64,000 nucleotides of DNA from Bradyrhizobium paxllaeri (GTDB lineage Bacteria > Pseudomonadota > Alphaproteobacteria > Rhizobiales > Xanthobacteraceae), in NCBI RefSeq assembly GCF_001693515.2, contig NZ_CP042968.1, positions 4,712,001-4,776,000 of the forward strand, given 5' to 3'. The notes beneath the pieces were generated by a model. It saw only the letters and a list, made by a program, of their open reading frames with translations. It did not search any database and had not been told where the DNA came from. Of this stretch, positions 12,225 to 55,139 are shown piece after piece (the stretch's first letter is position 1; each line of letters opens with the position of its first letter). The translations under genes were made by a program, and so were the position numbers.

Positions 12225-12426
12225 CGGTTACGCCTTCTCATGGGAATGGCCGTATCTAACCCAGCTACCCCAAAAGCAAAAGGCGGATGCATCGGCGTTG
12301 CTGCGATGCACGATACCGCAAGCGTGAGGAAATCGCGCGCGTGACATGCTCCCGCCGCAACCCTCGTTTGATGTACGCTATCGCCAAACAAGGAGCGGCA
12401 AGCTCGTGGTCACGGGGAGAGAAACG

Positions 12427-14574
12427 ATGAATCTCGGTCGGACCCTATTTGCATTCACCTTGGCATCAGCAGGCGTGCTCGGCTTCATGGCGGCACCATC
12501 GCGCGCACAGCAGCCGGCGGTCGCGATCGACAATGACGATATCGGCGGCGTGGTGGCCGGACCCAACGGGCCAGAGGCCGGCGTCTGGGTCATCGCCGAG
12601 ACCAACGAGTTGCCGACGAAGTTCGCCAGGACCGTCGTCACCGACGATCAGGGACGCTACGTGATCCCCGACCTGCCACTGAACGTGAACTACACGATCT
12701 GGGTCCGCGGCTATGGGCTGGTGGATTCGCCGAAGCTGCGTGCCAAGCCCGGCCAGCAGCTCAATCTCACGGCGGTCCCGGCGCCGAACGAGGCGGCTGC
12801 GGCGCACTACTATTCGGCGATCTACTGGTACACGATGATGAAGATCCCACCGGCCAAGGATTTCGGCGGCTCCACCGAAATCCCGAAGGAGATCACGCAG
12901 GACATCTGGCGCCAGCGCATGAACAATGTCGACTGCATCGGCTGCCATCAACTCGGCCAGGAATCCACGCGCACGATCCCGGGCGCGTTCGGCGAGTTCA
13001 AATCGGGCGAGGAAGCCTGGATGCGGCGCGTCTCCTCAGGGCAGACCGGCGAATGGATGGTGAACCGGCTTGCGGGCCAAATGGGCGGCGTGCCGTTTAA
13101 ATATTTCGGTGACTGGACCGATCGGGTCGCCAAGGGCGAACTGCCGAAATCCAAGCCGCCGCGGCCGGCCGGCTTCGAGCGCAACGTCGTCGTCACATCC
13201 TGGGAATGGGCGACCGAAAAACACTTCGTCCACGACCTGATTTCCTCGGACCGGCGCTATCCGACCGTCAACGCTTACGGCCCGCTGTTCGGCGCGAATG
13301 AATATTCGTCCGACGACATGCCGATCCTCGATCCGAAAACGCACAAGGTGACGTTCTCAAAGATGCCGGTTGCCGATCCCAACGCGCCGGAATCGTTCGG
13401 CCCGCCGCTCCATGGCACCGCCCTGCTCAATCCGGTCAGTCCTTCGGCCTATTGGGGTGACGAGAAGATCTGGAGCCAGCGGACCAACAATCACAACAGC
13501 ATGTTCGACAAGAAGGGCCGCGTGTGGCTCGCGGCGGCCGTACGCGGCATTGAAAATCCGGCGTACTGCCGCAAGGGATCCGACCATCCGTCGGCGAAGG
13601 CCTTTCCGCTCGAACGTTCGGGACGGCAAGTGACGGTGTTCGATCCCAAGACCCAGAAGTACGCCTTCGTCGATACCTGCTTCGGCACCCATCACCCGCA
13701 GTTCGGCTATGATGCGGACGATACGCTTTGGGTATCGGGCACCGGCCCCGTTGCCGGCTGGGTCAATACCAAGCTATGGGACGAGACCGGCGATGCCATC
13801 AAAGCACAGGGCTGGGCGCCATTCGTGCTCGATACCAACGGCAACGGCAAGGTCGACGAATACACCGAGCCGGGCAAGCCGGCGGAGGCCGGCAAGGACA
13901 TGCGGGTCGCAGGCTCCGGCCCCTACGCGGTGATGCCGCATCCGACCGACGGCTCGGTCTGGTACACCGTCAACGTCTTCGTCGGCCAGCCCGGTTTCAT
14001 GCGCTTCGATCCCAAGACCAAGCTGTCCGAATTCTACGCCATCCCGAAGGAAGGCATCGGCGTTCGCGGCGGCGACATCGACAAGAACGGCGTGCTGTGG
14101 GGCTCGGGCTCGAACGGCAGCCTGATCCGCTTCGATCGCAGCAAATGCAAGGCGCCGCTGAACGGGCCGGAGGCCACCGGCAACCACTGCCCGGAGGGTT
14201 TCGCCTACTTCAAATATCCGGGCCCGGGCTTCGAGGGTTTCGAAAACTCCAGCGCCGAGGCGAGCTACTACACCTGGGTCGATCACCACAACACGGTCGG
14301 CCTTGGCGAAAACATCCCGATTTCCACCGCCAACCTCAACGACGGCTTCGTCGCCTTCAAGGACGGGCAGATGGTGATGCTGCGCATTCCCTACCCGCTC
14401 GGCTTCTTCGCCAAGGGCCTCGACGGACGTATCGACGATCCGAACGCCGGCTGGAAGGGGCGCGGCCTCTGGAGTTCGAGCGGCGATCGGACGCCGTGGC
14501 TGATGGAGGGAGGCAAAGGCTCAAAGCCGCGGGCGGTGCACATTCAGGTGCGGCCCGATCCATTGGCAAAGTAA
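12427..14574 (+). CDS. Exported protein with carboxypeptidase-regulatory-like domain, CxxCH motif and beta-propeller-like region
   Basis: The 715-residue product has a signal peptide (cleavage near SRAQ-Q, residue 30) and a ribosome binding site GGGGAGAG before the ATG. Residues 35-115 look like a CnaB/carboxypeptidase regulatory-like beta sandwich (GVVAGPNGPEAGVWVIAETN, DDQGRYVIPDLP). A CIGCH motif at about 170 could bind a c-type heme. The rest has repeated blades (VTVFDPKTQKY, GYDADDTLWVSG, DIDKNGVLWGSGSNGSLIRFD) like virginiamycin-B-lyase or NHL propellers, with an EF-hand-like DTNGNGKVDE at about 469. Probably a periplasmic redox or binding protein; function unknown. It stands alone and converges on the next gene. 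Confidence 0.8.
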   Translation: MNLGRTLFAFTLASAGVLGFMAAPSRAQQPAVAIDNDDIGGVVAGPNGPEAGVWVIAETNELPTKFARTVVTDDQGRYVIPDLPLNVNYTIWVRGYGLVDSPKLRAKPGQQLNLTAVPAPNEAAAAHYYSAIYWYTMMKIPPAKDFGGSTEIPKEITQDIWRQRMNNVDCIGCHQLGQESTRTIPGAFGEFKSGEEAWMRRVSSGQTGEWMVNRLAGQMGGVPFKYFGDWTDRVAKGELPKSKPPRPAGFERNVVVTSWEWATEKHFVHDLISSDRRYPTVNAYGPLFGANEYSSDDMPILDPKTHKVTFSKMPVADPNAPESFGPPLHGTALLNPVSPSAYWGDEKIWSQRTNNHNSMFDKKGRVWLAAAVRGIENPAYCRKGSDHPSAKAFPLERSGRQVTVFDPKTQKYAFVDTCFGTHHPQFGYDADDTLWVSGTGPVAGWVNTKLWDETGDAIKAQGWAPFVLDTNGNGKVDEYTEPGKPAEAGKDMRVAGSGPYAVMPHPTDGSVWYTVNVFVGQPGFMRFDPKTKLSEFYAIPKEGIGVRGGDIDKNGVLWGSGSNGSLIRFDRSKCKAPLNGPEATGNHCPEGFAYFKYPGPGFEGFENSSAEASYYTWVDHHNTVGLGENIPISTANLNDGFVAFKDGQMVMLRIPYPLGFFAKGLDGRIDDPNAGWKGRGLWSSSGDRTPWLMEGGKGSKPRAVHIQVRPDPLAK

Positions 14575-14956: not shown

Positions 14957-15925
14957 CTACTCCAGCTTGATGTTGGCAGCCTCGATGACCTTCTTCCACC
15001 GCGTCGTCTCGGACGCGATGTAGGCCGCGAACGGCTGGGCATCGAGCGCCATGGCATCGGCGCCGAGTTCGGCCATCTTCTGCTTCGTCTCCGGCTGCTG
15101 CATGAAGGCCCGGATCTCCGCCGACAGTTTTTCGACGATCGGCTTCGGCGTCGCAGCCGGGACGAAGAAGCCGTGCCAGGCGACCGCCTCGAAGCCGGGC
15201 AGGAACTCGGCGACGGTGGGAAGGTTCGGATCGAACGACGCGCGCTTGGGCGTCGCGGCCGCGATCAGCGCGAGCTTGCCGTCCTTGGCCTGCGGCAGAA
15301 GCAGCGGCACGTTGTCGAAGGCAAGATCGATCTGTCCGCTGATGAGATCCGTCAGCATCGTGCTCGAGCCCTTGTAGGGCACATGCACCATCTTGGTCCC
15401 CGTCATCTGCTGGAACAATTCGGCCGCCAGATGCTGCGAGGTGCCGACGCCGGCCGAACCGAACGAGACCTTTTCTGGATTGGCCTTCAGGTAGGCGATC
15501 AGGTCCGGCAGCGTCCGCGCCTTGATCTTGTCGGGGTTCACGACCAGAACGTTGGGAACCATGCTGATCTGGACGATCGGCTGCAAATCCTTGTCGGGCT
15601 GGTAGCTGAGCTTCGGACCGTACAGCGACGGATTGATCGCAAGCGCGGATGTGCTGGCGAGGCCCAGGGTCAGGCCATCAGGCGCCGAACGCGCCAGCCG
15701 CGTGACACCGACGATGCTGCCGGCGCCGCCGACATTCTCGACCACGAACGGCTTGCCGAGCTTGGCCTGAAGATGATTGGCGACCATGCGCGCGAAGATA
15801 TCGGCGGTGCCGCCGGCGGCGAAGGGAACGATCACGCTCACCTGCCTGGAAGGATACGCGTCCTCCGCCTTCGCAGGAGCCGCCAGCAGCATTGCCGACG
15901 CAAGAATAAGCCACATAGATCTCAT
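14957..15925 (-). CDS. Tripartite tricarboxylate transporter (Bug/TctC) solute-binding protein
   Basis: The 322-residue protein has a signal peptide (ends PAKAED) and the Bug-family pattern: VSVIVPFAAGGTADIFARMV, VVENVGGAGSIVGV, ARSAPDGLTLGLASTSALAINPSLYG, FGSAGVGTSQHLAAELF, VPYKGSSTMLTDLISGQIDLAFDN and FDPNLPTVAEF. Such proteins capture carboxylates in the periplasm. It is the last gene of the acid-sugar operon (55 nt after the iron alcohol dehydrogenase), so it probably binds the operon's substrate. The membrane subunits TctA and TctB are not in the window, so it must use a permease encoded elsewhere or act as a sensor. Confidence 0.9.
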   Translation of the reverse strand: MRSMWLILASAMLLAAPAKAEDAYPSRQVSVIVPFAAGGTADIFARMVANHLQAKLGKPFVVENVGGAGSIVGVTRLARSAPDGLTLGLASTSALAINPSLYGPKLSYQPDKDLQPIVQISMVPNVLVVNPDKIKARTLPDLIAYLKANPEKVSFGSAGVGTSQHLAAELFQQMTGTKMVHVPYKGSSTMLTDLISGQIDLAFDNVPLLLPQAKDGKLALIAAATPKRASFDPNLPTVAEFLPGFEAVAWHGFFVPAATPKPIVEKLSAEIRAFMQQPETKQKMAELGADAMALDAQPFAAYIASETTRWKKVIEAANIKLE

Positions 15926-15980
15926 CGAAGTTTCCTCTGCTTGTTATTGGTTTACTGCCGCCGCGCCCGTAGCGAGTTGG

Positions 15981-17111
15981 CTAAAACGCCGTCTCGTACA
16001 TCTTCAAAATTTCGTCGCGGGAGAGATCGCGCGGGTTGTTGTCGAGCAGGCGGCGAATGGCATGGGCCTCGTCCGCCATGGTGCCGAGATCGTCCTTGGG
16101 AACGCCGAGCGCGGACAGGCGCATCTCGATGCCGAGATCGGCGCAGAATTGATAGGTGGCGTCGAACGCAGCCGCGGGAACGTTGCGTTCCGGCAGGCCG
16201 AGCGCATGCAGCACCGCGACGGTCTTTACCGATATCTCCGGCATGTTGAACGCCAGCGTATGCGGAAAGATCACCGCGCAGGCGAGGCCATGCGCCACAT
16301 GGTGCCGCGTGCCGAGCGGATAGGCCACCGCGTGGCCGGCTGTCGTGTTCACCGGGCCGAGGCAATAGCCGCCATAGAGCGAGGCCAGCGCCAGGCCCGC
16401 ACGGGCCTCGCGATCGCTGCCGTCGGCAACGGCGCGCCGCAGGTAGCGTCCGACCAGCCGCGCACCATCGATCGCGTAGAGGTCGATCGCGGGATGTGCC
16501 TTGCGGCTGGTGTAGGCCTCGACGCAATGTGCCAGCGCGTCGACACCGGTTGCCGCCGTGACATCCCGCGGCACGGTCATCGTCAGGTCGGGATCGACGA
16601 TGGCGATATCGGCGAGCATGAAGCGGCTCTGCACGGCGAGCTTGTTGCGGCTGGCCGGATCGGTGACGAGCGCGCGGGTGCCGGCTTCGCTGCCCGTCCC
16701 GGAGGTGGTCGGAATCTGCATCAGCGCGACGCTACGGCCAGCAACCTTCTCGGCACCCACGATGTCGGCAAAAGCCGCTTCACCGGTGCAGAGCACGGCC
16801 ACCAGCTTGGCGAGATCCATCGCGCTGCCGCCGCCGAAACCGACGACGAGATCGGGCGCGGCCTCGCGCGCCATCGCGACCGCCTTTTCGAGATTGGGCA
16901 GATCCGGCTCGGGCTTCACATCGCCGAACACCTTGACCGCGCCGGGCAGCGCCAGTTGATCGACGCGACGCGCGTTGAAGGAATCCGAGATCACCAATGG
17001 CCGTCGCGCGCCGATCCGCTCCGCAAAGCGCGCCGCAGCGGCGATGGTCCCACATCCGAACTCGACGGTGGTGGGACGAAGGATCTCGATCGGCGTGAAG
17101 GAATTGGTCAT
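15981..17111 (-). CDS. Iron-containing alcohol dehydrogenase
   Basis: The 376-residue protein is a group III metal-dependent alcohol dehydrogenase. It shows the nucleotide-binding VVGFGGGSAMDLAKLVAV (about 90-105), PTTSGTGSEAG, and the metal ligands in TGVDALAHCVEAY (Asp, His) and GHAVAYPLGTRHHVAHGLACA (two His). The family oxidises primary or secondary alcohols or reduces aldehydes and includes maleylacetate reductases. It lies 11 nt after the PdxA2-type gene, so in this operon it probably handles a short hydroxy-acid or semialdehyde intermediate (inference). Full length. Confidence 0.92.
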   Translation of the reverse strand: MTNSFTPIEILRPTTVEFGCGTIAAAARFAERIGARRPLVISDSFNARRVDQLALPGAVKVFGDVKPEPDLPNLEKAVAMAREAAPDLVVGFGGGSAMDLAKLVAVLCTGEAAFADIVGAEKVAGRSVALMQIPTTSGTGSEAGTRALVTDPASRNKLAVQSRFMLADIAIVDPDLTMTVPRDVTAATGVDALAHCVEAYTSRKAHPAIDLYAIDGARLVGRYLRRAVADGSDREARAGLALASLYGGYCLGPVNTTAGHAVAYPLGTRHHVAHGLACAVIFPHTLAFNMPEISVKTVAVLHALGLPERNVPAAAFDATYQFCADLGIEMRLSALGVPKDDLGTMADEAHAIRRLLDNNPRDLSRDEILKMYETAF

Positions 17112-17122
17112 TGGGCGTCCGG

Positions 17123-18159
<1,037 letters not shown>

Positions 18160-18163
<4 letters not shown>

Positions 18164-19278
18164 GTCAGTTTCCCTGTGCTGAGCAATTGATTGTCATGGA
18201 GCAGATCGCGCCATAGCTCCCTTGTACCAAACGCTCCGGATTTGGAGATCACGTCAACGCCAGCCCAACGGCCGCCCTGCAGGGACGAGCGCGGCAGCCC
18301 CGGCACGAGGCGCCCGGCGACCTGCAACGCCTGCGCATCGAGCGCGACACAGACCGCCTTCAACGTCTCGCCCCCGGCAACGATCAGCGTGCCGGGAGGA
18401 TCAAGCGCTGCCATCAGCGTCGTCATTTCCCGCGCGATCCGGCGTGCCGCCTCGGCGCGCGACAGGCCCTCGGCAAGCGAAAACTTGACCAGCACCACGC
18501 CGTCATCGGCAAGCTTGCGCTGCACCCGCGCCGCGCCTCCAACCTCGCCTTCGGCAATGGTGACGACAGCCTCGCCGCACGCCTCAAGCTGGGATGCGGT
18601 GACGACCTGATCGGAGCCAAACAGTCCGAGCACCGGCTTCTTCAAACGACGTGACACACTGGCGTCGCGGCCGCGCGCCAGGGCGCCGGCCAATCCGCCG
18701 CTCCCGCACCACAGCACGGGCGTGGCCAGGCTTCGCCCCATCTCAACCACGCGGTCGAGATCGCGGTCGCTCTCCGCGTCGAAAATCTGAACGCCGCCAT
18801 GTGACAACGTATCGAGCCGGCCTTGCCGGGCGTCGATGCGTTCCGCGTGGAGTTGGGCCAGAAGGTTGGCGCCGACCGGATGCCAGTCGCCTTCCTGCGT
18901 GCGCGCGAACTGCTGACCGTCGCAGGTGCGGCGTCCCTGGTACTCGAAGGCTGGCGCAACAACGCAAGCTGCCCAATGACCGCTGCGCAGGCAGGCGCCG
19001 AGTTCGGCGGCCCACGCTCCACGCAACAGGCTATCGACCTTTTTGTAGGCGATCGTGCCTTCACCAAGCAGTGGAGCCAGCCGTCCGACGATCTCGACGC
19101 TCTCAGCCTTGGCGAGCTCGCGCGTTCCGCTATCGATCGCAAGACTTCGCGGCGCATTCGTCGAGAGCGCCTCCGGCCAGGTCACGTCGAACGGTCCGCA
19201 CAGCCCGACGAACTCGGCCGCGGTGTCGAGCGCACCGGTGAGGTCGTCGGCGAGAAGGCGGACGCTCGTCATCGTCAT
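18160..19278 (-). CDS. Four-carbon acid sugar kinase family protein (DUF1537)
   Basis: The 372-residue protein starts with RLLADDLTGALDTAAEFVG, the substrate-binding DDLTGA motif of DUF1537 kinases, and has KKVDSLLRGAWAAELGACL in the N-terminal domain. The C-terminal nucleotide-binding domain has LIVAGGETLKAVCVALDA and the GVDVISKSGAFGTRELWRDL tail typical of the family. Characterised members phosphorylate D-threonate, L-threonate, D-erythronate or 3-dehydro acids at O4. Both flanking genes overlap it by 4 nt (ATGA). Start at 19278; a second ATG at 19272 is possible. The exact acid sugar is unknown. Confidence 0.92.
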
Positions 19279-20723
19279 GCCGCTCCCGCGCGCTTATTCG
19301 CGAAGATCTTGTCCGGATTCATCAGGCCGTTCGGATCGAGCAATTGCTTGATGCGGCGCATCAGGTCTATATCGAGCGGATCGGCGACGCGCGCGAGCCG
19401 GCCGCGATTGGTGATGCCGATGCCGTGCTCGGCGCTGATGGCGCCACCCTGCGCTGCGGTCTCGTCGTCGACGATCTCGTTGATCTCAGCCACCAGTGCC
19501 GCCGTCGCGGCGGGGTCACGGCAGCGATCGCGGTCGATCAGGGCGATCACATGAATATTGCCGTCGCCGATATGGCCATGCATCACCACGCGGGCATGGG
19601 GAACGGCCGCGTTGATCCTGGCCTCGACATTGGTGACGAACGCTGCCTGCCGCTCCAGCGGAACCACGCTGTCGTGCGACACCACATGGCCGCTGCGCTT
19701 GTTGCCTTCGGAGACGCTGTGCCGCACCGCCCAGATCGCCTTCGCCTGCGCGAGGCTCGATGCGAGCACGGCATCTTCAGCCAACCCCGCATCCATCGCG
19801 TCCGACAGCACGGTGGCCAGCGGCTCGTTGAGATCGATCCCGGCCAGCGTGTCGGTCAGTTCGACGATCAGGTACCACGGCGTGGTAAGTTCGAAGGGAA
19901 TGGTGACATGCGGCACGGTCTCGGCGATCGCCTCGATCTGGCTGCGCGACATGATTTCGAGACTACCGAGCCGGTCGCCGACCGCGCCGCGCAAATGCTG
20001 CATGATCTGCAGGGCCTGCTCGACGCTCTGCAGCTTGAGCAGCGCCAAAGCCGAACTGCGCGGTGGCGCGAACAGTTTCAGCACCGCTGCGGTGACGATA
20101 CCGAGCGTGCCTTCCGCACCGATGAAAAGCTGCTTGAGCGCGTAGCCCGTGTTGTCCTTGCGCAGCGCGCGCAGGCCGTTGAAGATGCGCCCGTCCGGCA
20201 GCACCACTTCCAGCCCGAGCACCAGATCGCGCATCGGCCCGTAGCGCAGCACCGCCGTGCCGCCGGCATTGGTGGAGATATTGCCGCCGATCTGGCAGGA
20301 GCCCTCGGCACCGAGACTCAACGGAAAATAGCGATCCGCCGCCATGGCCGCAGCCTGCACCTCGGCGAGGATGCAGCCGGCCTCAACTGTAATGGTGTTG
20401 GCGAGCGGGCTGACGTCGCGCACGCGCCGCATGCGGTCGAGCCGGATCACGACATTGAAGGCGCCGTCGTCCGGCGTCGCGGCGCCGCACATACCGGTGT
20501 TGCCGCCCTGCGGCACGATCGAGAGTCGATTGTCGGCACAATAGCGGACGACGGCCGCCGCCTCGGCGGTCGAGCCGGGCTTGACGACCGCAACAGCACG
20601 GCCGCGATAGCGTCCGCGCCAGTCCACCACATAGGGCTCCTGATCGCCGGAGGAATCGATGACGTAATTGTCGCCGACGATATCAGCCAGGCCAGCAAGC
20701 ACTTCCTGGAAGGATTCGGACAT
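19275..20723 (-). CDS. FAD-linked 2-hydroxyacid dehydrogenase (GlcD/D-lactate dehydrogenase type)
   Basis: The 482-residue protein (ATG at 20723) is a VAO-type flavoenzyme: VVRYCADNRLSIVPQGGNTGMCG and GGNISTNAGGTAVLRYGPMRD in the FAD-binding domain, then the FAD-oxidase C domain with VVMHGHIGDGNIHVIALID and SAEHGIGITNRGRLARVADP. The family oxidises D-2-hydroxy acids such as D-lactate, glycolate or D-2-hydroxyglutarate, passing electrons to quinone or a flavoprotein. The upstream 41 codons in frame are Arg-rich and unlikely to be translated. Second gene of the operon (26 nt after the lyase gene); it overlaps the kinase start. Confidence 0.92.
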   Translation of the reverse strand: MSESFQEVLAGLADIVGDNYVIDSSGDQEPYVVDWRGRYRGRAVAVVKPGSTAEAAAVVRYCADNRLSIVPQGGNTGMCGAATPDDGAFNVVIRLDRMRRVRDVSPLANTITVEAGCILAEVQAAAMAADRYFPLSLGAEGSCQIGGNISTNAGGTAVLRYGPMRDLVLGLEVVLPDGRIFNGLRALRKDNTGYALKQLFIGAEGTLGIVTAAVLKLFAPPRSSALALLKLQSVEQALQIMQHLRGAVGDRLGSLEIMSRSQIEAIAETVPHVTIPFELTTPWYLIVELTDTLAGIDLNEPLATVLSDAMDAGLAEDAVLASSLAQAKAIWAVRHSVSEGNKRSGHVVSHDSVVPLERQAAFVTNVEARINAAVPHARVVMHGHIGDGNIHVIALIDRDRCRDPAATAALVAEINEIVDDETAAQGGAISAEHGIGITNRGRLARVADPLDIDLMRRIKQLLDPNGLMNPDKIFANKRAGAA

Positions 20724-20749
20724 CGGATCGCCTCGTCGCCGGCGCCGCG

Positions 20750-21673
20750 CTAGGCGACCGCCGCGGCATTCGCGCCGGCGTTCGCAAGCAGCTCTTTCAA
20801 ATACGAAGCCGGCAGGGATTCCAGCGGCGGCCGCAGGCGCTGCCATCCGGGATGGCCGGTGCGCTCCGCGACCAGCGCCTTCAGCGATGCCATCTGCGAA
20901 AAGCGTGAGACAAGCTCGCGCGCCTTCACGATGCGCGCCTGTGCCGCCGCGAGGTCGGCTTCATCGTCGCCCTTGCCGAAATGCCGATAGACATGGGCAA
21001 GGTCGCGCGCGACCAAATTGGATGTCGCGGTGATGCACCCCGCACCGCCCTTGCGCAACAGCGGCAGGAGCAGCGGATCCGCACCGGTCAGCACCGAAAA
21101 GCCCGGAAAGCGCTCGACCATCGCGGTCATGTTGGCGAAATCGCCGGAGGAATCCTTGATGCCGACGAAGGTCGCCGGATAGGCCGCGCGCAGCCGCTCG
21201 ATCAGTGCATGCGAGATCGGCTGCATCGACATCTGCGGAATATGGTAGAGCACGATCTTGAGCCGCGCATCGCCAAGCCGCTGCACGACTTCGCTGTAGG
21301 AGGCGTAGACGCCATCGTCGGTGACGCCCTTGTAGTAGAATGGCGGCAGCATCACCACGGTATCGACGCCGACCGAAAGCGCATGACGCGTCAGCGCGAT
21401 GGTATCGCTGAGCGCCGCGACGCCTGTTCCGGGCAGCAGCTTGTTCGGCACGATGCCGTCCCGTACGACGGCCTCGAGCAGCGCCGTACGTTCGCTGACC
21501 GAAAAGGAGTTGGCCTCGCCGGTGGTGCCGAGCATCGCGATGCCGTCGCATCCCTCGCTCAGGAGATAGCGGCAATGCGCGACGAAGCGCGCGTGATCGG
21601 GGGCGAGCTCGGCGTCAAGCGGCGTCAGTGCGGCACAGAACACGCCATGAGGATGCAGGGATGATGTCGACAA
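20750..21673 (-). CDS. Dihydrodipicolinate synthase (DapA/NanA) family lyase
   Basis: The 307-residue protein has the family's GTTGEANSFS motif, the active-site Tyr in KIVLYHIPQMSM and the Schiff-base Lys in FVGIKDSSGDFANM, so it should be a catalytic class I aldolase or dehydratase. Length fits the family. The start is inferred as TTG at 21673 because GGAGGAACTT stands 5 nt upstream. An ATG at 21718 is also in frame but would overlap the regulator's operator. First gene of the operon. Family members cleave or dehydrate 2-keto-3-deoxy sugar acids; the substrate here is open. Confidence 0.9.
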   Translation of the reverse strand: MSTSSLHPHGVFCAALTPLDAELAPDHARFVAHCRYLLSEGCDGIAMLGTTGEANSFSVSERTALLEAVVRDGIVPNKLLPGTGVAALSDTIALTRHALSVGVDTVVMLPPFYYKGVTDDGVYASYSEVVQRLGDARLKIVLYHIPQMSMQPISHALIERLRAAYPATFVGIKDSSGDFANMTAMVERFPGFSVLTGADPLLLPLLRKGGAGCITATSNLVARDLAHVYRHFGKGDDEADLAAAQARIVKARELVSRFSQMASLKALVAERTGHPGWQRLRPPLESLPASYLKELLANAGANAAAVA

Positions 21674-21699
21674 AAGTTCCTCCGATCGCCCGAATCCCA

Positions 21700-21728
21700 T
21701 TGTTCGGAATGCGAACATTTGTTATATT
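21700..21728 (+). promoter_or_regulatory. Predicted iclR promoter with overlapping palindromic operator
   Basis: TGTTCG-gaatg-CGAACA at 21701-21717 is a perfect 6-bp inverted repeat with a 5-nt spacer, in the gap between the lyase gene and the divergent iclR gene. It overlaps a plausible iclR promoter: TTGTTC (21700-21705), 17 nt, TATATT (21723-21728). It is 28 nt upstream of the lyase TTG start and 91 nt upstream of the iclR ATG. The position fits a regulator controlling both directions. Prediction from sequence only. Confidence 0.65.
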
Positions 21729-21808
21729 TGCTGCACTCTCCTAGAGCCGGACCGGCGCTGCCGTCAAGGGCCGCCAGCCCGGCGTTCTTGCAAGCGGGCA
21801 TTGACGAG

Positions 21809-22630
21809 ATGGCAAAGACCTCGAAGCGCGCGCCGACCGCCGCGCCGAAAAATCCGAAGAACTACGTCGCATCCGTCGGCAAGGCCTTTGCGGTGCTGCA
21901 GAGCTTTTCCAGCGACGCCTTCGAACTGACGCTCAGCGAGATTGCCGCGCGCGCCGATCTCGATCGCGGAACGGCGTTTCGGCTGATTCAGACGCTGATC
22001 GAACTCGGCTATCTCCAGCCCGTTCCGCAGAGCCGCCGGTTCCGGCTCGGCGTCGCCTGTCTCGATCTCGGCTACACGGTGTTGTCAGGCGGAACGCTGC
22101 GCGCCCTGGCCGAACCGTTGCTGCGCGACCTCGTGCCGGCGGTGAGCGACGCAGCCTCGCTCGGCGCACTCGACGGAGGCGACGTGATCTACCTCGCCCG
22201 CGTCGGCACCGGGCTCGACCGGCACAAGATGGATCGCCGGCCCGGCGCCCGCATTCCGGCTTATAGCGCCGCCCTCGGCCATATCCTGCTGGCGCACCTG
22301 CCGCGGGACGAGCAAGTACGCCGGCTGGAATTGCGGCCACGCATCAAATTGTCGGAGCGAACGCTGACGGATCTCGATGCCCTGCTCGAGCGGCTCGATC
22401 TGGTGAAGCGGCACGGCCACGCGATCTCCGACGGCGAAAACGCTTACGGCCTGCGCACGCTGGCAGCGCCGATCTTCGATGCGCAAGGCTCGGTGACGGC
22501 CGGTTTGAGCGTGACGGTCGATGCGACGCGCATGGAGATGGCGGCGTTCCGCGACCAGGCCCTGCCCCCACTGACGCGTGTCGCAGCCGTCGTGCAGGAT
22601 CTCGCGATCAAGGCCGGCCTGTCGAACTAG
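21809..22630 (+). CDS. IclR family transcriptional regulator
   Basis: The 273-residue protein has a basic N-terminal extension (MAKTSKRAPTAAPKNPKNY) and then the IclR wHTH (VASVGKAFAVLQSFSSDAFE, LTLSEIAARADLDRGTAFRL, IQTLIELGYLQ). The effector-binding domain includes GGDVIYLARVGTG, GARIPAYSAALGHILLAHL and ENAYGLRTLAAPIFDAQGSV. The ATG at 21809 begins the conserved region; the frame is open to 21719. It is divergent from the six-gene acid-sugar operon and almost certainly its regulator, with the effector probably the pathway substrate or an intermediate. Confidence 0.92.
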   Translation: MAKTSKRAPTAAPKNPKNYVASVGKAFAVLQSFSSDAFELTLSEIAARADLDRGTAFRLIQTLIELGYLQPVPQSRRFRLGVACLDLGYTVLSGGTLRALAEPLLRDLVPAVSDAASLGALDGGDVIYLARVGTGLDRHKMDRRPGARIPAYSAALGHILLAHLPRDEQVRRLELRPRIKLSERTLTDLDALLERLDLVKRHGHAISDGENAYGLRTLAAPIFDAQGSVTAGLSVTVDATRMEMAAFRDQALPPLTRVAAVVQDLAIKAGLSN

Positions 22631-53011: not shown

Positions 53012-53114
53012 CTAAAGCGTGATGACTTTTCTTCGAATCGTCATCCCGCTTTAGCTTTTTTGTTTGAGCATGATCTTTTCGGAAAACCGCTACACACTTT
53101 TCCGGATCATGCTC
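53012..53114. repeat. Two adjacent palindromic repeats, family F
   Basis: First palindrome: ctaaagcg-tgatgac...gtcatccc-gctttag (53012-53054), followed by ctttttt, so it could also act as a terminator. Second: gagcatgatc...gatcatgctc around ttttcggaaaaccgctacacactttt (53066-53114). Both are sequences I know as frequent in Bradyrhizobium intergenic DNA. They lie between the GcrA-like gene and the convergent SDR gene, ending at the SDR stop codon. Confidence 0.78.
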
Positions 53115-54082
53115 TAGCCAAGCCGCCAGCCGACTTCTTCCGTAAAGCTCTTGTAGAACTCCGGCGTGTAGGCCTTCTCAGGGGCCTGCCGCACCCGCTC
53201 GTCGAGCTTGTGGGCGTCATCGCCGACAAGGATCCGCCAGCGCTCGGCCTTGACCCCGTCGAGGATGACCTTGGCCGCGGCCGCCGCCGTGGTCGGCGCC
53301 TCCTCGCGGAAAGTGCGCGCGCGGTCGAGCGCGATCTGCTGGATGTCCGCGTCCGACATCGGCGCGGTGTCGATGCCCATGCCGTTCAGGCGCTGGCGCG
53401 TCGCCAGGATTTCATTCGGGCTGAGTTCATCGGATTCGGTGCCGCTCTGAATCTTGCGCGAATTGGAAACGATCGAGGTGCCGATATGTCCGGGCATCAC
53501 GACTGAGCATTTGATGTGCGGCGCATTGAGCCGCAGGTCCGTCATCAGCGCTTCGGTAAACCCTTTCACCGCGAACTTGGCGGCGCTGTAGGCGGTATGC
53601 GGTACGCCGAGGCCAACCGACGCCCAGAAGCCGTTGACGCTCGATGTGTTCACGATGTGTGCCTCGTCGGCCTTCATCATCAGCGGCAGGAAGGTGCGGA
53701 CCCCGAGATAGACGCCGCCCCAGCAGATGTTGAAGGTACGCTCCCACTGCTCGCGCGTATTGGTGAACAGGCTGCCGCCGCCGCCGATGCCGGCATTGTT
53801 GAACAGCAGATGGATCTTGTCGGTCGCTTGCTGCTCGATCAGTTCGTCGCGGAAGCGCTGCAGATGAGCCTCGATCGAGACGTCGGCGACATGGGTGGTG
53901 ACGCGCAATCCCTGCGGCAGCTTTTCCGCTTCACACATGCGCTTGGTCTCGGCCATCGCTTCCACGGATACGTCGCACATCGCGACATTGCAGCCTTCGG
54001 CAACCAGCTGGCGCGCGAGCTCGCGGCCCATGCCCGTGCCGCCTCCAGTAATCACGGCAAACTTTCCGGCAAAATCCTTCAT
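53114..54082 (-). CDS. Short-chain dehydrogenase/reductase
   Basis: The 322-residue protein has the SDR motifs: FAVITGGGTGMGRELARQLV (cofactor, TGxxxGxG), HLLFNNAGIGGGG (NNAG), IVNTSSVNGFW (Ser) and TAYSAAKFAVKGFTEAL (YxxxK). A C-terminal extension past about 250 (residues after EAPTTAAAAAKVILDGVKAE) is typical of longer classical SDRs. The ATG at 54082 begins the conserved N-terminus; the long upstream frame is not supported. It is on the same strand as the DapA-like gene, with a gap of 151 nt. Substrate unknown. Confidence 0.92.
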   Translation of the reverse strand: MKDFAGKFAVITGGGTGMGRELARQLVAEGCNVAMCDVSVEAMAETKRMCEAEKLPQGLRVTTHVADVSIEAHLQRFRDELIEQQATDKIHLLFNNAGIGGGGSLFTNTREQWERTFNICWGGVYLGVRTFLPLMMKADEAHIVNTSSVNGFWASVGLGVPHTAYSAAKFAVKGFTEALMTDLRLNAPHIKCSVVMPGHIGTSIVSNSRKIQSGTESDELSPNEILATRQRLNGMGIDTAPMSDADIQQIALDRARTFREEAPTTAAAAAKVILDGVKAERWRILVGDDAHKLDERVRQAPEKAYTPEFYKSFTEEVGWRLG

Positions 54083-54233
54083 CGCGACGCTTACCTCGGT
54101 TTTCAATTTTTGAGTTGGGGCTCTCGTGGAAATGGAGCCCGTGCGGAAGGACAGTAACAGTTCGCGACTGTCGGTAAAGCCGCCCGTGAGGCGGGCGGCG
54201 CGATTGTCTCGCGGCCGTTTCGCGGAGCGGAAT

Positions 54234-55139
54234 TTACTCCGCCGCCTCGCGCGAGCCGCCCAGCGCGCCCAATCCCTCCAGCGCCTTCCGGATGACGGCC
54301 TGTTGCGCAGGCGAAGCTTCCGGCATCGGCGCACGGGAGAATGTCGCCGGCAATCCCTGCAGCGACTGCGCGTAGCGCGTGCACGCCGGCAGATTGTCCG
54401 AGACGATGGCGTTCCACAGCGTCAGCAACTTCTTGTGCAACTCGAGCGCGCGAACATGGTCGCCCGCCTTGACCGCATTCCAGAGTTCGACGGACGCATG
54501 CGGCGCGGCGCTCAAAATCGCGGCGATCGAGCCGTGCGCACCGAGCGTATAGGACGGATACATCAACGCGTCGACGGCACTGTAGATCAGTTTGTCCGGC
54601 GCCATCATCATGAGATCGGCAAACAGTTTCAGATCGCCCGCGCTCTGCTTGACGCCGACGACCAGCGGCACCTCGTTCATGATCCGCGTCAGCAGCGCGG
54701 GCGACAGATAGGACCAGGGCACGACGTTGTAGATGATGATCGGCATGCCGGTTTCGTCGGCCATGCGACGAAAGTGATCGACCATCGCCTGCTCGTCCGG
54801 CTTGAACAGATAATGCACCGGCGTCACCTGGAGCGCCGCGACGTCCATGTCGCGCACCAGTCGGCCGCGGCGGATCGCATCGCGGGTGGAATCGACGATG
54901 ATGCCCGCGATCACAGGCGCGCGCCCTTTCGCCGCTTCCACCGTCGCCGCCACCAGGTCGCGATATTCCTCGTGGTCGAGCGTATGCCCCTCACCGGTCG
55001 AACCGCCGGCGGCCATACCATGACTGCCGGCACCAATTAGCCAGTCGACCTGGGGTGCGACCAGTTTGAAATCAATCTCACCGTCTTTGCGAAACGGCGT
55101 GGTCATCGGCGGTATTACGCCGGTCGGACGTGTTTTCAT
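54234..55139 (-). CDS. Dihydrodipicolinate synthase family protein (second copy)
   Basis: The 301-residue protein is a DapA/NanA-type class I lyase: GVIPPMTTPFRKDGEIDFKL, AAGGSTGEGHTLDHEEYRDL, the active-site Tyr in PIIIYNVVPWSYLS and the Schiff-base Lys in VVGVKQSAGDLKLFADLM. It is not closely similar to the copy at 20750-21673. The ATG at 55139 has GAGGGCAG upstream. Substrate open: 2-keto-3-deoxy acids or a related hydroxy-keto acid are possible. Confidence 0.9.
   Translation of the reverse strand: MKTRPTGVIPPMTTPFRKDGEIDFKLVAPQVDWLIGAGSHGMAAGGSTGEGHTLDHEEYRDLVAATVEAAKGRAPVIAGIIVDSTRDAIRRGRLVRDMDVAALQVTPVHYLFKPDEQAMVDHFRRMADETGMPIIIYNVVPWSYLSPALLTRIMNEVPLVVGVKQSAGDLKLFADLMMMAPDKLIYSAVDALMYPSYTLGAHGSIAAILSAAPHASVELWNAVKAGDHVRALELHKKLLTLWNAIVSDNLPACTRYAQSLQGLPATFSRAPMPEASPAQQAVIRKALEGLGALGGSREAAE

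Follow-up and report, generated by a model that had tools for sequence, protein, structure and literature searches.

Several pathways for the breakdown of acid sugars bear on the locus described here. D-threonate degradation by a DUF1537 kinase, DtnK, together with PdxA2 was reportedly described by Zhang et al. in 2016. The glucarate/galactarate pathway employs the aldolase GarL, the reductase GarR and the kinase GarK, sialic acid catabolism relies on a sialidase, the YhcH anomerase and the NanA lyase, and the OtnK-type pathway combines a DUF1537 kinase with a HIBADH-type dehydrogenase, an isomerase and a class II aldolase-type decarboxylase. We analyzed a stretch of 64,000 nucleotides (nt) from Bradyrhizobium paxllaeri (contig NZ_CP042968.1, positions 4,712,001 to 4,776,000, hereafter the window) that carries an operon of six genes facing a gene for an IclR-family regulator. 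We consider it somewhat probable that the products of this operon carry out the lower steps of an unbranched route for the breakdown of a 2-keto-3-deoxy C7 sugar diacid, most simply 3-deoxy-D-lyxo-2-heptulosarate (Dha) or its 2-hydroxy form. The locus is composed as follows.

14957..15925, minus strand: TctC, periplasmic solute-binding protein of a tripartite tricarboxylate transporter (PF03401, 234 bits)
15981..17111, minus strand: iron-containing alcohol dehydrogenase, Fe-ADH (PF00465, 130 bits; C-terminal family PF25137, 154 bits)
17123..18163, minus strand: PdxA2-type dehydrogenase (PF04166, 341 bits)
18160..19278, minus strand: DUF1537 acid-sugar kinase, short divergent form of 372 amino acids (PF07005, SBD_N, 76 bits; PF17042, NBD_C, 50 bits)
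19275..20723, minus strand: FAD-linked D-2-hydroxyacid dehydrogenase (FAD enzyme), a relative of D-2-hydroxyglutarate dehydrogenase (D-2-HGDH) (FAD_binding_4, 123 bits; FAD-oxidase_C, 168 bits)
20750..21673, minus strand: DapA/NanA-family class I pyruvate aldolase of lineage I (PF00701, dihydrodipicolinate synthase (DHDPS) family, 150 bits)
21701..21717, no strand: proposed IclR operator TGTTCG-GAATG-CGAACA, a 17-base palindrome in the divergent promoter region
21809..22630, plus strand: IclR-family regulator, divergent (PF01614, IclR_C, 117 bits; PF09339)

Transcription of the six genes runs leftward in the order DapA, FAD enzyme, DUF1537, PdxA2, Fe-ADH and TctC, opposite to the IclR gene, with successive gaps of 26, -4, -4, 11 and 55 nt, and the Pfam scores of all operon proteins lie far beyond the cut-offs. 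A sequence-only reading of the window had described six codirectional genes facing an IclR gene, with 4-nt overlaps or gaps of 11–55 nt; positions, strands, spacings and Pfam matches all agree with this description. The aldolase gene probably starts at the TTG at 21673, located behind a GGAGG, rather than at the ATG at 21718, so that the palindrome would fall between the start regions of DapA and IclR. The complete genome (8.38 Mb) contains three PdxA, four Fe-ADH and two DUF1537 genes, one of each being in the operon, and 13 DHDPS-family matches at 12 places, one of them in the operon.

As in the D-threonate pathway, a DUF1537 kinase is paired with PdxA2, with dihydroxyacetone phosphate (DHAP) and CO2 as expected products, and Pfam confirmed this pair, which had already been recognized from the sequence. 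The kinase motifs ADDLTGALD, KVDSLLRG, VAPAF, GGET and KSGAFG align with conserved columns of six other operon or paralogous kinases. With these family motifs and a 4-nt overlap between the kinase and PdxA2 genes, the pair shows the adjacency and the motifs expected of the D-threonate DUF1537/PdxA2 pathway. The best PDB relatives of PdxA2 are 2hi1, 4jqp and 6e85, the last of which is named D-threonate 4-phosphate dehydrogenase and aligns with the window protein over nearly its whole length. Together, kinase and PdxA2 require a C4 acid that is hydroxylated at C3, and their end product is DHAP. In contrast to the D-threonate pathway, the operon adds an upstream aldolase and Fe-ADH, so that D-threonate would arise inside the cell. 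As the sequence-only reading had pointed out, the short pathways in print have no place for the lyase, the flavin enzyme and the alcohol dehydrogenase.

Using the kinase as query, we collected 26 loci from other Bradyrhizobium records. The loci analyzed here were self-chosen or drawn by the search tool, in stretches of 8–48 kb, and a gene that was not seen may therefore lie outside its stretch. DapA and PdxA2 are present in all 26, Fe-ADH in 25, and the FAD enzyme and TctC in 24 each; two loci also carry BNR and SDR genes. The gene set kept across these loci argues that the operon is not a chance assembly. One congener locus (L049) retains DapA and lacks Fe-ADH and the FAD enzyme. Family-wide, the kinase was found in 27 of 248 genomes including that of the window (E 1e-20), and 20 loci from 19 genomes were read. 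Ten contain kinase, PdxA2 and Fe-ADH, eight of them together with the aldolase, which was not seen in L065, at a contig edge, or in L069. In seven (L070–L075, L077), kinase and PdxA2 are present but both Fe-ADH and aldolase are lacking; a DeoR-like regulator (identified by eye) accompanies six of these, and six have ABC or TRAP genes nearby. The remaining loci hold kinase and PdxA2 (L058), the kinase alone (L059) or a decayed copy of the operon (L076, genome G169), where DUF1537 is matched over only 97 residues, there is no PdxA2 and Fe-ADH is broken into two pieces in different frames. An Fe-ADH search of a class-wide sample found 3 further genomes of 385 (E 1e-90).

The seven loci without Fe-ADH or aldolase and L058, as well as the reduced congener L049, would suit a plain D-threonate operon, in which DUF1537 and PdxA2 degrade imported D-threonate and aldolase, Fe-ADH and FAD enzyme are mere passengers. 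We regard this explanation as very improbable, because the aldolase nearly always accompanies this Fe-ADH clade in Alpha-, Beta- and Gammaproteobacteria and in Enterococcus: it is missed in the family at L065 and L069, and never in the plasmid stretches. These were obtained with Fe-ADH as seed, which matched 277 records among 72,556 plasmids (E 1e-60). The 18 stretches that we read come from Roseomonas, Methylobacterium, Azospirillum, Rhizobium, Sinorhizobium, Agrobacterium, Aminobacter, Ensifer, Shinella, Pleomorphomonas and Thioclava, several of them closely related; all 18 carry the aldolase and 17 carry PdxA2, and DUF1537 and a BNR_2 'exo-alpha-sialidase' gene were each seen in 16.

We also searched with the sialidase-like BNR protein as seed. 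It matched 10 times in 398 genomes of the phylum, and the corresponding stretches contain Fe-ADH, PdxA2 and aldolase in nine cases each, DUF1537 in seven and a YhcH-family gene in three. One BNR stretch without the core (L114) belongs to a genome, G064, whose kinase operon is located elsewhere (L011). Among plasmids, 297 records matched BNR (E 1e-40), and six stretches were read (two from Pantoea and one each from Cupriavidus, Caballeronia, a Comamonadaceae strain and Enterococcus raffinosus): Fe-ADH, PdxA2 and aldolase occur in five each, DUF1537 in four and the YhcH family in three. YhcH-family genes thus accompany 6 of the 16 BNR-seeded stretches, the hosts including Pantoea, Enterococcus and three other genomes. 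The gene order in E. raffinosus is DUF1537, Fe-ADH, DapA, PdxA2, YhcH family, BNR, and in Pantoea PdxA2 lies opposite to Fe-ADH, DapA, SSS, BNR, YhcH family and SDR. The core module of these relatives, which include soil and plant-associated bacteria, combines a pyruvate aldolase with DUF1537, Fe-ADH and PdxA2; BNR is often next to it, a YhcH-family gene sometimes. Kinase and PdxA2 are fused in Caballeronia (L137:6046-8352, 768 amino acids, both domains scored), and a Cupriavidus open reading frame of 775 amino acids (L135:7494-9821) was judged from its length to be a similar fusion. For Rhizobium johnstonii 3841, gene counting from glpD (pRL90074) and a CUT2 binding protein gene (pRL90085) places the matching Opp transporter at about pRL90100-101.

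Alignment of 27 DapA-family aldolases separated three lineages: I (n = 13; the window, Roseomonas, Methylobacterium, Rhizobium and kin), II (n = 8; Azospirillum and Xanthobacteraceae) and III (n = 6; Sinorhizobium, Agrobacterium and kin). Lineage I shares 22–31% identity with II or III, whereas II and III are 46–52% identical to each other. Two loci (L064, L102) have an HpaI-type aldolase instead of the DapA type. Since the same slot is filled by three interchangeable DapA lineages or by HpaI, the pyruvate aldolase reaction appears to be conserved and the protein is not. A Schiff-base lysine, the tyrosine of YxxP and a GxxGE loop define class I pyruvate aldolases of the DapA/NanA type, and the window protein keeps all three (GIKDS, LYHIP and GTTGE, respectively). 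It does not qualify as a true DHDPS, with LYHIPQMS in place of YNVPxRT and 133 bits against the TIGR00674 cut-off of 206. In DHDPS, an arginine (Arg138) binds the carboxylate of aspartate semialdehyde. The motif Y[ND]IP[AS]RT, resembling that of DHDPS Arg138, is found in 14 of 14 lineage II and III proteins. Lineage I is devoid of arginine at this position and has an invariant lysine in FYYK (13/13), which, at a guess, takes over carboxylate binding. Aspartate semialdehyde, the DHDPS substrate, and 4-oxo-threonate, the aldehyde expected in our proposal, are both aldehyde acids with four carbons.

The simplest source from which a pyruvate aldolase and then an aldehyde reductase can make such a C4 acid is a C7 diacid of the 2-keto-3-deoxy type. 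In the proposed pathway, the DapA-type aldolase would cleave Dha into pyruvate and 4-oxo-D-threonate, Fe-ADH would reduce the latter to D-threonate, the DUF1537 kinase would produce D-threonate 4-phosphate, and PdxA2 would release DHAP and CO2 by oxidative decarboxylation. The succession of a keto-deoxy diacid aldolase, an aldehyde-acid reductase and a kinase is that of the glucarate/galactarate pathway; the proposed route differs in being one carbon longer, in using other reductase and kinase families and in its final oxidative decarboxylation. The sequence-only reading was right about the DUF1537/PdxA2 pair and about the misfit of the additional enzymes. It had suggested a four-carbon (or related) acid as substrate of a possibly branched route; these parts, and a central position of the flavin enzyme, are not supported: comparative and regulon evidence favours a C4 intermediate made by aldolase and Fe-ADH from a larger keto acid, and a single linear order covers aldolase, Fe-ADH, kinase and PdxA2. 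D-threonate is thus more likely an intermediate of the pathway than its starting food.

The stereochemistry of Dha agrees with this proposal. In Fischer projection, the D-lyxo hydroxyls are on the left at C4 and C5 and on the right at C6. When the chain is cut between C3 and C4, CHO-C5(left)-C6(right)-COOH remains, and the reduced chain, once turned, reads COOH-C2(left)-C3(right)-CH2OH, which is exactly D-threonate. A D-xylo acid would likewise give D-threonate and a D-arabino acid L-erythronate. This C7 diacid occurs naturally in plant cell walls, and rhamnogalacturonan II (RG-II) is its only reported source in plants (PMC12168206). RG-II degradation in Bacteroides thetaiotaomicron, which includes the Dha hydrolase GH143, differs from our proposal in being a polysaccharide hydrolysis; in the open-licence PubMed Central literature searched, we found no description of the fate of free Dha, of its breakdown to central metabolism or of the present operon.

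Several other roles were considered and rejected, the substrates on general chemical grounds. Aldol cleavage of 3-deoxy-D-manno-octulosonate (KDO), 2-keto-3-deoxynononate (KDN) or sialic acid yields neutral or amino sugars and no C4 acid for PdxA2, and a glucarate-type C6 diacid would yield glycerate, which PdxA2 cannot decarboxylate. Cleavage of 2-keto-4-hydroxybutyrate to formaldehyde needs a dehydratase, which is absent here, and would give kinase and PdxA2 nothing to do; the same objection applies to a 4-hydroxy-2-oxoglutarate-type cleavage. A role in vitamin B6 synthesis was discarded, given two other PdxA genes in the genome.

In some relatives, BNR, a YhcH-family protein and a DapA/NanA-family lyase occur together as in sialic acid catabolism, and by analogy this combination would be the signature of a sugar handled like sialic acid. 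Dha has been termed a seven-carbon sialic acid analogue (PMC6811678), and YhcH is described, in PMC8141875, as supplying the NanA aldolase with the open-ring form. The systems differ in that the aldehyde product here would pass to Fe-ADH, DUF1537 and PdxA2, and in the absence of BNR from the window genome and of YhcH from the window; neither NanK nor NanE was noticed in the loci that we read. BNR, found in 27 of 146 genomes of the genus, has no obvious signal peptide (by eye). The YhcH-family proteins of Pantoea and Enterococcus (91 and 65 bits) both exceed the TIGR00022 cut-off of 45.5 bits. In relatives, BNR would free the ketoside, and the YhcH-family protein would, in some of them, open the ring. 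In the window strain, TctC would bind the free acid and the FAD enzyme would oxidize a 2-hydroxy-3-deoxy acid to the 2-keto acid. Tentatively, and with slightly less than even confidence, we suggest that Alpha-, Beta- and Gammaproteobacteria and Enterococcus have a full Dha pathway leading from the ketoside to central metabolism (BNR, YhcH type, aldolase, Fe-ADH, kinase, PdxA2), of which the window strain would have a reduced version fed by 2-hydroxy acids.

The palindrome TGTTCG-GAATG-CGAACA occurs once in the window genome, and the reversed pattern does not occur there. Its arms are exact in 24 of the 26 congener loci; the other two, L055 and L056, each deviate at one base. In L056 and L039, a second site with one mismatch lies upstream of the BNR/SDR group of the same locus, and G064 has an exact site at each of its two places. 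Exact sites were found in 84 of the 146 genus genomes scanned. We then took, among the genomes listed, all ten with two sites (spacer GAATG or GATTG, either strand), leaving out G988, which combines a GAATG site with a variant one. In all ten, one site falls into the space separating IclR from DapA and the other lies where an SSS-BNR-SDR group begins, BNR and SDR being confirmed in 10/10; the second site precedes the called SSS start by 62–65 bases in nine, and in L180 the called open reading frame overlaps it. The palindrome common to both half-operons indicates a single regulon. At least two exact sites, with any spacer, were present in 21 of 27 BNR-positive genomes as compared to 14 of 119 BNR-negative ones (Fisher p 2.8e-11 over the 146 genomes, counted by eye and uncorrected for relatedness). 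Copies with one mismatch were also found in two Roseomonas and one further alphaproteobacterium, ahead of SDR and IclR/Fe-ADH genes (L078:7102, L095:7191, L102:1401), suggesting that the regulator-operator pair may predate Bradyrhizobium. The palindrome is a candidate operator for the IclR protein, which would sense the substrate or an early intermediate and control both half-operons. The closest models to this protein are PcaR/PcaU/PobR and KdgR, and it falls under the cut-off of all eight NCBIfam models matched.

The flavin enzyme of the operon is related to 3pm9 (E 2e-118) and to human D-2-HGDH (E 9e-93), and it keeps Arg386, His434, His441, Glu475 and His476, as expected of a D-2-hydroxyacid dehydrogenase in general. 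It would be an accessory to the pathway: 4 of 10 sister operons (L185, L186, L194, L197) lack it, DapA and DUF1537 being close together there, and in two of these (L186, L194) TctC was not found either. Its place is taken in other relatives by an NAD 2-hydroxyacid dehydrogenase, in some together with an Ldh2-type enzyme or a LarA group 22 epimerase, and many BNR loci have none of the four. LarA-like 'NPN isomerase group 22' genes stand beside the core with LarB, LarC and LarE-like genes in L062, L063, L066 and L067, and that of L063 passes its cut-off; this nickel-pincer epimerase family may act on the 2-hydroxy acid of the pathway. The common denominator of the entry enzymes would be conversion of a 2-hydroxy to a 2-keto acid, both C2 configurations being served where two enzymes are present. 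That FAD, NAD, Ldh2 and LarA enzymes are alternative entries for the 2-hydroxy form of one acid is the weakest step of our proposal.

The same enzymes could be arranged in a branched scheme, along the lines of the sequence-only reading: a C4 acid, for example D-erythronate, would be oxidized at C2 by the FAD enzyme and then reduced by another enzyme to D-threonate for DUF1537 and PdxA2, and the lyase would serve a second substrate. D-erythronate and D-threonate are indeed C2 epimers, and among the 20 family loci LarA group 22 (four loci) and the NAD 2-hydroxyacid dehydrogenase (six loci) lie beside the core. We nevertheless consider this scheme improbable, as aldolase and Fe-ADH are present in all ten sister operons, including the four without the FAD enzyme, and the aldolase in all 18 Fe-ADH-seeded plasmid stretches, and as BNR and YhcH, which share the regulon or operon, would have no role. 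The second DUF1537 gene of the window genome (L132), at a different place, also argues against it. This gene is flanked by class II aldolase-, HIBADH- and isomerase-like genes, and the cluster looks, by eye, like the OtnK/OtnI/OtnC/LtnD type, which shares with our operon only the DUF1537 kinase. The OtnK-type pathway handles L-threonate and D-erythronate (PMC10580937), and these acids appear therefore to have their own genes.

A more serious alternative, though still an unlikely one, keeps the logic of the proposed pathway for another 2-keto-3-deoxy acid, such as a C7 diacid of different stereochemistry or with one hydroxyl fewer, or a lactone or glycoside, the C4 product being not exactly D-threonate. 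The three aldolase lineages, the divergent PdxA2 and DUF1537 proteins and the variable entry modules (BNR with SDR, YhcH, 2-hydroxyacid dehydrogenase, Ldh2, LarA group 22, FAD enzyme) are compatible with it, as are the scores of the window kinase and PdxA2, which fall below the D-threonate cut-offs. On the other side, the curated model NF002891 for D-threonate 4-phosphate dehydrogenase (cut-off 583 bits) is passed by Pantoea PdxA2 (L134, 665 bits), alone among six relatives, the other five scoring 304–354; furthermore, Dha yields D-threonate by Fischer projection and occurs naturally in plant cell walls.

A number of observations weigh against the Dha pathway that we favour. We infer Dha from enzyme classes and stereochemistry. 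The window PdxA2 scores 298 bits with NF002891 and the window kinase 109 bits with NF047819, the D-threonate kinase model (cut-off 450), which is named for a gamma-type enzyme and gives 116, 160 and 220 bits for three other operon kinases; the window proteins can therefore be said to work like D-threonate enzymes, not to be such enzymes. In the FAD enzyme, Lys401 is replaced by His and Asn443 by Ile, which sets it apart from D-2-hydroxyglutarate dehydrogenases, where these residues hold the second carboxylate of D-2-hydroxyglutarate (PMC7801405). No BNR match was found in the window genome, with the query that detects BNR in G064, and no YhcH match within the window, the rest of the genome not being searched for YhcH. 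Hence the strain cannot free Dha from a glycoside by the proposed route, and it lacks the sialidase-like and anomerase genes of a sialic-acid-type system. BNR itself resembles solved sialidases weakly (best E 4e-7 in a profile search of PDB) and may not be a glycosidase but have another job. The YhcH-family proteins of Pantoea (97 bits) and Enterococcus (60 bits) miss the cut-off of the N-acetylneuraminate anomerase model NF040884 (160 bits), and none of the 18 Fe-ADH-seeded plasmid stretches has a YhcH-family gene. Six of the 27 BNR-positive genomes have no second exact palindrome: two of them have a single site and four have no site at all. The module is also incomplete in places: PdxA2 and DUF1537 are not in the 15 kb of the HpaI-type locus L102, DUF1537 is not in the Pantoea stretch L134, and Pantoea agglomerans L139 has BNR, YhcH and SDR with none of the core genes. 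Finally, no RG-II-degrading cluster was recognized beside the operon, except for a gene of family GH127 (beta-arabinofuranosidases) near the Agrobacterium locus, with a sugar ABC transporter (L089:18713-20665). Found in one of seven loci with lineage III aldolases, it carries little weight, although it fits the arabinose-Dha of RG-II side chain D.

Other genes were observed around the operon or elsewhere in the genome. No TctA or TctB gene adjoins TctC; ten TctA matches are found elsewhere in the genome, and these proteins could be partners of the lone TctC. On the plus strand beside the operon, 12346-14574 encodes a protein of 742 amino acids with a heme-type CIGCH motif (by eye) and a weak carboxypeptidase-regulatory-like Pfam match. 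It is kept beside the operon in 8 of the 26 congener loci and is therefore probably not part of it. A second DHDPS-family gene adjoins an SDR gene at 53114-55106 on the minus strand, its product being 18–27% identical to the four aldolases compared. Elsewhere in the genome (C1:4242675-4245127), a further gene of the PdxA family directly adjoins one for TctA, with an open frame of 966 amino acids around the PdxA match, and is possibly part of another acid catabolic locus.

If our proposal is correct, the breakdown of Dha would explain the natural origin of D-threonate. It would also provide a likely substrate and a complete, testable order of enzymes for the many operons whose genes now carry the annotations exo-alpha-sialidase, dihydrodipicolinate synthase family, iron alcohol dehydrogenase and PdxA.

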